The position numbers and the translations under genes were made by a program. Positions 26,393 through 30,276 of a stretch of DNA of 54,954 bases are shown in pieces. Each line of letters opens with the position of its first letter. Positions within the stretch are counted from its first letter, which is position 1. Where the stretch lies: contig NZ_KQ959992.1 in assembly GCF_001553035.1 (NCBI RefSeq), positions 16,103-71,056 of the forward strand. Direction: 5' to 3'. Below the pieces are notes generated by a model. It did not search any database and was not told the DNA's origin. It worked only from the letters and a program-made list of their open reading frames with translations. The stretch is from Gemella haemolysans. GTDB taxonomy: Bacteria; Bacillota; Bacilli; Staphylococcales; Gemellaceae.

Positions 26393-27481
26393 ATGGAAAT
26401 TTTTGGACAACTTGAGATAGTTGAAGAGCGTTATGAAAAGTTAAACGAATTACTTAGTGATCCAGATGTTGTAAGTGATACAAAGAAACTTATGGAATAT
26501 TCAAAAGAACAACGCTCTATTGAAAAAACAGTAGCTGTATTTAGAGAATATAAAGATATAGTTCAACAAATTAAAGACACAAAAGAACTTCTTGAAATTG
26601 AAGAAGATAAAGAAATGAAAGAAATGATGCAAGAAGAGATTAAGGAATTAGAACCAACTCTTGCACCTATGGAAGAAGAATTAAAAATTCTATTATTACC
26701 AAAAGATCCTAACGATGGTAAAAACGTTGTTGTTGAGGTTCGTGGAGCAGCGGGTGGAGATGAAGCACAATTATTCGCAGGTGATTTATTACGTATGTAC
26801 ACTAGATTTGCTGAATCTCAAGGATGGAAAGTTGATGTACTAGAACGTTCTGAAACTGGAATCGGTGGTATTAAAGAAGCAATCTTCATTATTTCTGGTG
26901 AAGATGTTTACTCTAAGATGAAATTCGAAAGTGGAGCGCATCGAGTACAACGTGTCCCTACAACAGAATCAAGTGGACGTATCCATACTTCAACAGCAAC
27001 AGTAGTAGTATTACCAGAAGCTGAAGAGATTGAAATTGATATTAATGAAAATGATATCCGTGTTGATACATTTGCATCAAGTGGTGCTGGAGGTCAATCG
27101 GTAAATACAACAATGTCAGCTGTACGTTTAACTCACATTCCTACAGGAGTTGTAGTATCTATGCAGGATGAGCGTTCTCAGATTAAGAATAAAGAGAAAG
27201 CTATGAAAGTATTACGTGCCCGTGTATATGATAAATATCAACAAGAAGAACAAGCTAAGTTTGATGCTGAACGTAAATCTAAAGTTGGTACTGGGGACCG
27301 TTCTGAACGTATTAGAACATATAACTATCCTCAAAACCGTGTTACTGACCACAGAATTGGTTTAACTATTCAAAAACTAGACCAAATTATGGAAGGTAAA
27401 CTTGATGAAGTTCTAGAAGCACTTCGTATTGCAGAGCAAGCTGAGAAAATGGCAGAACTTAATAAAGGTGAAGAACTATAA
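26393..27481 (+). CDS. prfA: Peptide chain release factor 1
   Basis: Terminates translation at UAA/UAG. The GGQ motif ([11 protein letters not shown]) and the stop-codon-reading region ([17 protein letters not shown]) are intact, in a 362-aa protein. AGGAGG is well placed. The last base of its TAA overlaps the prmC ATG, consistent with co-production of the factor and the enzyme that methylates its GGQ glutamine. Confidence 0.97.
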
Positions 27482-28323
27482 TGAACAGAAGGCAAGCTAT
27501 AACAAAAGCTTGTCTTCTTTTAAGAAGACAAGGAAAAGAAGAATCTTTAGCTAGATTTTTACTAATGTATATCCTAGACGAAAGTCCGCATTTATTCTCA
27601 AATAATCTGTCAGAGCAAATGTCTAAAGAAATTGAAGATAAATATTTTTCTTTGATTGAAAAACACATTAAAGAAGATGTTCCATTAAGTCATTTAGTAG
27701 GTTTTGAATATTTTTATGATAGGAAATATAAAGTCACTAAAGATGTCTTATCACCGAGGATGGAGACTGAGGAGCTTATATATAAAGTTATTGAATATGT
27801 AAAAGCGTCTAATAAGAACAAATTCAAAATTCTAGATCTTTGTACAGGAAGTGGTATAATAGCTATTACATTAAAGAAAGAATTATCTCAATTCTCGATT
27901 GATGTAGTGGCCAGTGATATTAGTGAAGAGGCTATAGAAGTTGCAAAAGAAAATGCACAATCTCATGATGCTACTATTAAATTCATAAAATCGGATATTT
28001 TTAATAATATTGATAATAAATTTGATATTATTGTTTCAAATCCTCCATATATAGACCGTAAGGATGAGGTTACAATGCAGGATAATGTACTAAAATATGA
28101 TCCACATCTTGCGTTATTTGCTGAAGAAGAAGGTATGTATTTTTATAGAAAAATTATAGAACAGGCGAATGATTATTTAAATGAAAATGGAGTTATGTTT
28201 TTTGAAATAGGATATGATCAGAAAGATAAGATTATAAAACTAGCAGATATGAATGGATTTTCGGCTGAAGTTTATAGAGATATAAATGGCCGAGATAGAA
28301 TGGCGTTTTTAGTTCGTAAATAA
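27481..28323 (+). CDS. prmC: Release-factor glutamine methyltransferase
   Basis: N5-methylates the GGQ glutamine of RF1 and RF2 using S-adenosylmethionine. It has the SAM-binding LDLCTGSGIIAI and the catalytic NPPY (SNPPYIDRKD). 280 aa is normal. It overlaps prfA by one base and is followed by a bidirectional terminator. Confidence 0.95.
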   Translation: MNRRQAITKACLLLRRQGKEESLARFLLMYILDESPHLFSNNLSEQMSKEIEDKYFSLIEKHIKEDVPLSHLVGFEYFYDRKYKVTKDVLSPRMETEELIYKVIEYVKASNKNKFKILDLCTGSGIIAITLKKELSQFSIDVVASDISEEAIEVAKENAQSHDATIKFIKSDIFNNIDNKFDIIVSNPPYIDRKDEVTMQDNVLKYDPHLALFAEEEGMYFYRKIIEQANDYLNENGVMFFEIGYDQKDKIIKLADMNGFSAEVYRDINGRDRMAFLVRK

Positions 28324-28402: not shown

Positions 28403-29035
28403 TTAAAGTTCCCTATATACTCCAACACATTCTCCGATTATTTCTACGTTACGTGTAACAATAGGTTCGTAATCAGGATTGCAAGGATAAAGAATCACAT
28501 TGTCATTTTTAACAAATATTTTCTTTAAAGAAGCTTCGTTCCAATCAGTTAAACGAACTGCTGCAATTTTTCCGTTTCTAACTGAACTCTGTTGGCGGAT
28601 AAATACTAAATCGCCATCAAAAATTCCAGCTTCAATCATACTATCGCCCTTAACACGTAATGCAAAATCAGCTCGCATACCTTGATCGATGAAAATATGC
28701 TCATCATATTCTTCTTCAATATACACACCATCTCCAGCACAAATTGTACCTAATATTGGTAATTTAGATACATCATCAGAAAAATTTTGTGCTGATGATA
28801 CGTTGCTATCAGTACTGTTGACTTCCATAGTATCACAATCACCGACAAGCCACTCTGGATTAACCGATAGGTATTCAGCTATTATAATAAGCTTATCTCT
28901 TTTTGGAGTATATTTTCCTTTAGACCAATCGCTAATTGATGATGGAGTAATATTAGTAGAACGAGCAAGTTCAGCTTGCTTTATATTCTTTTCTTTTAAA
29001 CATTGTTTAAATCTAATGCTAAATGTTGTTGTCAT
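28403..29035 (-). CDS. Self-cleaving HTH repressor (XRE + S24 peptidase), HdiR/LexA-like
   Basis: A 210-aa regulator with a Cro/CI-type helix-turn-helix (residues 8-62; KQAELARSTNITPSSISDW) and a C-terminal S24 LexA-like domain. The cleavage bond is Ala100-Gly101 (ICAGDG); the catalytic pair is Ser132 (GDSM) and Lys171 (EASLKKIF). Such proteins (HdiR of Lactococcus, phage CI) are cleaved with RecA-ssDNA help after DNA damage. It has no LexA-type HTH. No phage genes surround it, so it may act as the SOS regulator of this genome. It is transcribed away from a 37-aa membrane peptide through shared divergent promoters. Confidence 0.88.
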   Translation of the reverse strand: MTTTFSIRFKQCLKEKNIKQAELARSTNITPSSISDWSKGKYTPKRDKLIIIAEYLSVNPEWLVGDCDTMEVNSTDSNVSSAQNFSDDVSKLPILGTICAGDGVYIEEEYDEHIFIDQGMRADFALRVKGDSMIEAGIFDGDLVFIRQQSSVRNGKIAAVRLTDWNEASLKKIFVKNDNVILYPCNPDYEPIVTRNVEIIGECVGVYREL

Positions 29036-29069
29036 AATATTTTTTCCAATCTTTTTTATCTATATATAA

Positions 29070-29098
29070 ATTATAAAGTAAACCGTATATAAAATCAA
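29070..29098 (-). promoter_or_regulatory. Repressor promoter with CCGTAT box in the spacer
   Basis: On the minus strand: TTGATT (29098-29093), a 17-nt spacer, TATAAT (29075-29070). The spacer contains ATACGG, i.e. CCGTAT on the plus strand at 29083-29088, a candidate operator. Confidence 0.7.
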
Positions 29099-29138
29099 GT
29101 AACTTTATAAAAAAAATTAAGAAATATGAATTTTTCAC

Positions 29139-29167
29139 TTGATTTTCGGTTTTCCGTATGTTATTAT
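29139..29167 (+). promoter_or_regulatory. Small-peptide promoter with CGGttttCCGTAT operator candidate
   Basis: TTGATT (29139-29144), a 17-nt spacer, TATTAT (29162-29167). The spacer contains CGG-tttt-CCGTAT. The 10 bases ACTTGATTTT at 29137-29146 are an exact inverted copy of those at 29091-29100 in the repressor promoter. A third related box, ACGTAT, lies at 29194-29199 in the leader. Confidence 0.65.
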
Positions 29168-29220
29168 ATAAGTACGATAAGAAATTAAGTTTTACGTATA
29201 AAAAGAAAGAAGGTAATTTT

Positions 29221-29334
29221 ATGTTTATATATTGGATAATTATACTAGTTTTATTAGCAAAAGTTTTTACATTTTTTGAAACTAATAAATTAAAGATTGT
29301 AAAAAGGGGAAAATTGAATCGTAAAGTGTATTAG
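29221..29334 (+). CDS. 37-aa membrane peptide divergent from the S24 repressor
   Basis: ATG at 29221, stop TAG at 29332-29334, with AAGAAGG 7 nt upstream of the ATG. Residues 2-19 form one hydrophobic helix (IYWIIILVLLAKVFTFF) and the tail is strongly basic (KLKIVKRGKLNRK). Promoter, ribosome-binding site, ORF and terminator (29391) make a complete one-gene unit. I do not recognise the family. Size and topology recall SOS-induced small membrane proteins (TisB-like toxins, SosA/YneA-type division inhibitors in a general sense), and the promoter overlaps a candidate operator of the repressor. The function is unproven. Confidence 0.65.
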   Translation: MFIYWIIILVLLAKVFTFFETNKLKIVKRGKLNRKVY

Positions 29335-29390
29335 TATATTTTATTAATTTAATGAAGTTATTATGATGAGAAAATATTATTTACTGTTAT

Positions 29391-29433
29391 AAGATTAGAT
29401 GAACTATAATAATGATCTAATCTTATTTTTTTA
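29391..29433 (+). terminator. Terminator of the 37-aa peptide gene
   Basis: AAGATTAGAT / ATCTAATCTT perfect 10-bp stem, then ATTTTTTTA. Confidence 0.85.
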
Positions 29434-29589: not shown

Positions 29590-30276
29590 ATGAAATTAGT
29601 ATTAACTAGACATGGTGAAAGCCAATGGAATCTTGAAAACAGATTTACAGGATGGGTTGATGTAGACATCACTGATAAAGGTAGACAAGAAGCGATTAAA
29701 GGTGGACAAACTCTTAAAGAATTAGGTCTTACTTTTGATGTAGCTTATACTTCATACCAAAAACGTGCTATCAAAACTTTAAACCTATTCTTAGAAGAAT
29801 TAGATTTATTATGGATTCCAGTACACAAAAGCTGGAGATTAAATGAAAGACACTATGGAGCTTTACAAGGTCTTAACAAAGCTGAAACTGCTGAAAAATA
29901 TGGTGATGAACAAGTTCACATCTGGAGAAGAAGTTTTGACGTAGCTCCACCTGCATTAGATAAATCTAGTGACATGTACCCAGGAAACATCGATAGATAT
30001 AAAGAAATTCCAGAAGGAGAAATCCCAACAGGAGAAAGCTTAAAACTTACTATCGATCGTGTATTACCTTACTGGGAAAGCGATATTTCTAAACAAATTA
30101 AAGCTGGTAAAAACGTACTTATCTCTGCTCACGGTAACAGTTTAAGAGCGTTAATCAAATACTTATTAAATATCTCAGATGAACAAATCTTAGATCTTAA
30201 CTTACCAACTGGTACTCCACTAGTATTTGAAATCGACGAAAACTTAAACATTATCTCAGCACCAGAATTATTCTAA
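29590..30276 (+). CDS. gpmA: 2,3-bisphosphoglycerate-dependent phosphoglycerate mutase
   Basis: Glycolytic interconversion of 3- and 2-phosphoglycerate. The phospho-histidine is His8 in [10 protein letters not shown], with RLNERHYG and SAHGNS completing the site. 228 aa is the standard dPGM length. The gene is rich in favoured codons and regular in composition, as expected for a highly expressed enzyme. The ATG follows TAGGAGG. Confidence 0.97.

Follow-up and report, generated by a model that had tools for sequence, protein, structure and literature searches.

The window, that is, the whole 54,954-nucleotide stretch of DNA analyzed here, is part of a 1.89-Mb Gemella genome (contig C79). Located between prmC and gpmA, and divergently oriented, are a gene encoding an S24-type repressor and a previously unannotated ORF of 37 codons, which are separated by a region of 185 bp (29036-29220). 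The features of the locus are as follows.

27481-28323, plus strand: prmC, flanking the repressor/peptide locus on one side.
28403-29035, minus strand: repressor of 210 aa with HTH_3 and Peptidase_S24 domains, from Pfam, LexA structures and a family alignment.
29098-29070, minus strand: repressor promoter, TTGATT-17-TATAAT, from the sequence and aligned in relatives.
29076-29088, plus strand: putative operator O1, AAGTAAACCGTAT, in the spacer of the repressor promoter, at 13 of 14 Gemellaceae loci.
29139-29167, plus strand: peptide promoter, TTGATT-17-TATTAT, from the sequence and the alignment of relatives.
29147-29159, plus strand: putative operator O2, CGGTTTTCCGTAT, in the spacer of the peptide promoter, at 14 of 14 loci.
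29187-29199, plus strand: putative operator O3, AAGTTTTACGTAT, in the peptide leader, at 13 of 14 loci.
29221-29334, plus strand: gene for a 37-aa membrane micropeptide, MFIYWIIILVLLAKVFTFFETNKLKIVKRGKLNRKVY, with an AGAAGG ribosome-binding site and under purifying selection.
29389-29433, plus strand: terminator-like hairpin and T-run downstream of the peptide gene, seen in some species only.
29590-30276, plus strand: gpmA, encoding phosphoglycerate mutase, flanking the locus on the other side.

A sequence-only reading of this DNA had taken the locus for a candidate DNA-damage module, to be judged by conservation of the 37-aa ORF beside the repressor in related genomes. Of 15 Gemellaceae genomes, 14 carry the repressor-peptide pair, one of them with a frameshifted repressor; the fifteenth, lacking the pair, is an assembly rated 66% complete. 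The gene is present in the named relatives G. haemolysans, G. sanguinis, G. cuniculi, and G. bergeri.

The repressor gave Pfam matches to S24 (1.5e-25) and to HTH_3 (3.6e-12), the HTH being of the Cro/CI type, and its C-terminal half was aligned to LexA structures (6e-16). The Ala100-Gly101 scissile bond and the Ser132/Lys171 dyad, both located correctly in the sequence-only reading, align with the LexA cleavage site and catalytic dyad, and are invariant in an alignment of 13 family members. The protein has the features of a CI-type self-cleaving S24 repressor, in which an Ala/Cys-Gly bond and a Ser-Lys dyad lie in an S24 domain following a Cro/CI HTH. It also matched PHROG family 4 (transcriptional repressor) at 5.8e-44, and is 72-92% identical across the genus Gemella. 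A structure prediction made from five alignment rows was confident for the HTH only. These sequence features mark the repressor as phage-type and apparently self-cleaving, and by analogy with the S24 family its cleavage would depend on RecA. Some S24-type regulators answer signals other than RecA.

The repressor does not belong with LexA, which has a winged HTH and a different box. Pfam returned HTH_3 and no PF01726, the winged-HTH LexA_DNA_bind domain, and the NCBIfam LexA model gave 97.4 bits, under its cut-off of 110.95, with residues 84-209 only being matched. HdiR of Lactococcus and Streptococcus more closely resembles the Gemella protein in that it combines an HTH with S24, stands in for LexA, and controls a small regulon, which in S. 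thermophilus includes cinA-recA (PMC8565304). The sequence-only reading had accordingly called the repressor HdiR-like, but as a statement of kinship this was rejected by the tree, the operator, and the presence of a separate HdiR-type gene. In the tree, a branch with 100/99 support set the repressor apart from HdiR-type proteins. The latter were represented by proxies, namely plasmid-borne S24 proteins from lactococci and streptococci and a phage copy located upstream of uvrX, with the L. lactis chromosomal protein absent; the deep order among phage repressors is uncertain, and the tree contains long branches. The HdiR operator, tttATCAGtTtttCTGATaaa / ATCAGtTtttCTGAT (PMC1592510), differs from O1-O3. 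HdiR also controls umuC, whereas no site of the O1-O3 type was found upstream of dinB or at the umuC cassette of genomes G003, G001, and G007.

The HdiR-type S24 regulator of Gemella is encoded at ~96.2-97.4 kb of G000:C41 (L006, L091), followed by umuC, and its product shares ~40-48% identity with S24 proteins of lactococci and streptococci. The umuC gene is split by an in-frame TGA in G000, broken in G008, and intact in G003. Besides the repressor-peptide locus, this cassette may also serve the damage response in Gemella.

Footprinting across 14 loci from two genera revealed a putative operator unit of 13 bp, [AC][AG]G-N-WWW-[CA]CG-TAT, whose three copies in the divergent region score 17-20 bits against the matrix. 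The genome holds 23 sites of this type in 1.89 Mb, so that ~0.002 would be expected in 185 bp, compared to the three seen. Much of this arrangement had been anticipated: both promoters indeed have the form TTGATT-17-TATxAT, and a CCGTAT box lies in each spacer with a third related box in the peptide leader. All three boxes are retained at 13 of 14 loci. The proposed consensus CGG-N4-CCGTAT held only in part, with the CGG half present in the middle site and AAG in the other two. Likewise, the inverted repeat described earlier exists, ACTTGATTTT at 29137-29146 having its exact reverse complement at 29091-29100, but most of it is simply the pair of -35 boxes, and some relatives lack it. In two genomes of the sister genus, G011 and G012, O2 is on the opposite strand yet still within the spacer, and O3 too is reversed in the sister genus. 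Such flips at a kept position fit a protein-binding site, as an RNA element would not tolerate them.

A fourth operator between the two promoters was considered and rejected with a matrix score of -1.6. Between the -35 boxes, AAATTAAGAAATATGAATTTT (29114-29134 of the window) has hardly changed across nine Gemella genomes and one genome of the sister genus; it is not an operator by the matrix, and is perhaps an UP element. Loci L013 (G005) and L016 (G006) carry an extra operator-like stretch (ACTTTAT...ACGGAAAA) just past the peptide stop codon.

The peptide gene adjoins the repressor in every genome where it was found. Its pN/pS ratios of 0-0.37 over 21 species pairs indicate that the ORF is real, and between the window and the nearest species there are 7 synonymous and 0 non-synonymous changes. 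Residues M1, Y4, W5, F18, K23, K25, and K28 are invariant, and F2, K14, E20, and I26 nearly so. The AGAAGG ribosome-binding site, single membrane helix, and basic tail ascribed to the gene from its sequence all stood up to analysis. Residues 2-19 are hydrophobic enough for a membrane span, and AlphaFold returned one helix, confident over the first 20 residues. The first eight residues have a charge of 0 and the tail a charge of +4 to +9, from which an N-out/C-in topology is predicted by the positive-inside rule. The terminator hairpin that had also been ascribed to the gene does fold (-11.3 kcal/mol, z -3.4, GC-poor), but was seen in some species only. The peptide had no match in Pfam, NCBIfam, or PHROGs. 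When 397 other Bacilli genomes were searched, no match survived inspection, and four weak ones were rejected as unrelated frames. None was found in phages, and plasmid matches were attributable to chance.

Within the genome, no LexA DNA-binding domain was found except for a weak match in HrcA, and a true LexA elsewhere, which the sequence-only reading had recognized as a difficulty for its proposal, was rejected on this basis. In other Staphylococcales genomes sampled, the S24 half of the repressor gave LexA-like matches. The genome search for operator-type sites that had been suggested was carried out by pattern, and the context of each match was then read. The sole strong conserved non-coding match besides O1-O3 lies upstream of a gene pair ending in recA. 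The first gene of the pair resembles the fumarylacetoacetate-hydrolase family, and recA follows after ~13 bp. All nine Gemella genomes retain this site, TACGGATAACTT, with one of them carrying TACGGATATCTT, and it scores 14-19.5 bits versus 17-20 for O1-O3. The sister genus has no operator at recA. Genome-wide counts of the motif do not exceed those of a reversed-pattern control, so the case for recA is made by position and conservation rather than by count. In most species the site is one arm of a hairpin after uvrC, but it was rejected as a mere uvrC terminator because it outlives the other (left) arm, which is gone in G002 and G006. It sits ~56-68 bp upstream of the start inferred for an extended -10 promoter, too far for simple occlusion. 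The repressor probably controls recA as well, acting through this putative operator.

A larger regulon was rejected, since among the rows read, relaxed patterns gave in-gene matches apart from O1-O3, recA, and two non-coding ones. A non-coding match is present near htrA in G000 (L046), and another, AAGTTATCCGTAT, lies at position 588 of L193 (G013:C7), just after a TATAAT and ahead of a ytmP-like gene. In the sister genus, no recA was found in G009 and G012, whose assemblies are rated 99% and 96% complete, reflecting either an assembly gap or a true loss; both genomes keep the repressor-peptide pair.

The absence of LexA, together with the operators at the repressor, the peptide, and recA, looks like a minimal SOS-like regulon under a co-opted phage-type repressor, and the output kept almost everywhere in Gemellaceae is the micropeptide. 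On the model of S24 repressors whose self-cleavage has been characterized, a CI-like repressor fixed in the Gemellaceae chromosome beside gpmA would have taken over part of the job of LexA. Bound to O1, O2, and O3, it would block RNA polymerase at its own promoter and at that of the divergent 37-aa gene. Following DNA damage, RecA-ssDNA filaments would bring about cleavage at Ala100-Gly101, both promoters would open, the membrane micropeptide would be made, and the repressor would reset itself through O1. In Gemella, the fourth conserved operator would tie the recA transcription unit to the switch. We consider this explanation of the locus as a damage switch, leaving aside the target of the peptide, to be likely. 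The module recognized from sequence therefore persists in its self-cleaving S24 features, conserved putative operators, conserved membrane peptide, and lack of LexA; it has gained the link to recA and lost the kinship with HdiR.

The same genes might instead be a fossil phage immunity region, with the repressor retained through inertia or because it gives superinfection immunity, the peptide in the place of cro, and no role in host damage. The phage relatives of the repressor are indeed divergent to cro, and the PHROG match is in keeping with such an origin. We nonetheless hold this to be very improbable. No phage genes were seen around the locus, whose flanks in Gemella are prmC and gpmA. The repressor is highly similar across the genus, selection acts on the peptide, which is not Cro, and a conserved operator is present at recA.

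The closest precedent in kind for the damage switch is FddR of Francisella (PMC13148647), a phage repressor that has been co-opted and has a gene divergent to it. FddR is likewise of the S24 type and autoregulated, and there is no working canonical LexA response; its genus-wide network is tiny, the dominant member being the one divergent gene, of unknown function. It differs in its operator, GTG-N11-CAC, and in having recA outside its network, while the Gemellaceae partner is a 37-aa membrane peptide; the likeness is in kind. If the damage switch is correct, Gemellaceae would present a second, independent case in which a small damage response was rebuilt by a phage repressor in the absence of LexA, one that would span a whole family and add to the precedent a membrane micropeptide and a likely link to recA. 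A literature search on Gemella with LexA or SOS returned oral and subgingival community models and nothing on a Gemella SOS response.

What the peptide may do is suggested by its context. In staphylococci, which belong to the same order as Gemella, sosA is divergent to lexA and encodes a division blocker (PMC6851548), and the lexA-sosA and lexA-yneA (Bacillus) pairs resemble the Gemella locus in that the gene facing a self-cleaving repressor encodes, in divergent orientation, a small membrane protein with one helix. SosA itself has 77 residues, and its extracellular C-terminus is essential (PMC6851548). In contrast, the Gemella peptide is 37 aa, has no family match and no LysM, and is predicted to be C-in, the opposite topology, so that the extracellular part that follows the single TM helix of SosA and YneA, and that in YneA contains LysM, would be missing. 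Nearest in size is SidA of Caulobacter, a 29-aa SOS-induced inner-membrane division inhibitor (PMC4211646). SidA differs in being LexA-controlled and binds FtsW; the likeness is one of size and type, with no sequence relation known. Given that both the divergent sosA and the 29-aa Caulobacter peptide block division, we favor for the Gemella peptide a role like that of SosA, YneA, and SidA, in which one N-terminal membrane helix and a basic cytoplasmic tail would act as a brake on division or growth. Division inhibition specifically we put at slightly under an even chance. If the peptide does block division, the checkpoint would have been re-invented with an unrelated, oppositely oriented micropeptide. 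More tentatively still, the whole family may have lost both LexA and the accompanying division inhibitor, and then assembled a minimal SOS response anew out of recA, a phage repressor, a new operator, and a new family of membrane checkpoint peptides of 35-58 aa with inverted topology.

Growth arrest through membrane action is a possible but rather unlikely alternative under the same switch. Here the peptide would be a TisB/DinQ-like membrane-active toxin that enters the membrane, reduces the proton motive force, and either retards growth or gives rise to persisters, without binding the divisome. Its length, single hydrophobic helix, and strong positive charge fit such peptides, and its gene sits under an SOS-type repressor. 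The strict conservation of particular residues instead suggests a defined protein partner; moreover, no known RNA family was found in the peptide region, and type I toxin mRNAs do not have so short a leader as the ~45 nt seen here. With either outcome, the peptide is a good candidate for a damage-induced brake on growth or division in Gemellaceae, and so small and conserved a protein offers the field a target of action that is open to direct test.

The one-to-one pairing of peptide and repressor, and the predicted cytoplasmic side of the basic tail, could also be explained if the peptide were a membrane-anchored feedback partner that sequesters or protects the repressor, with no effector role in division or at the membrane. 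We found no positive evidence for such an interaction and regard it as improbable. The complete genome G010 bears on this point. Its peptide gene is still open, and extended, despite a broken repressor, and the peptide is thus not simply useless without it. The G010 repressor is frameshifted after ~residue 155 and its cleavage bond reads Ser-Gly, while O1 is unrecognizable and O3 eroded. Repressor and operators have decayed together, as expected if they work together.
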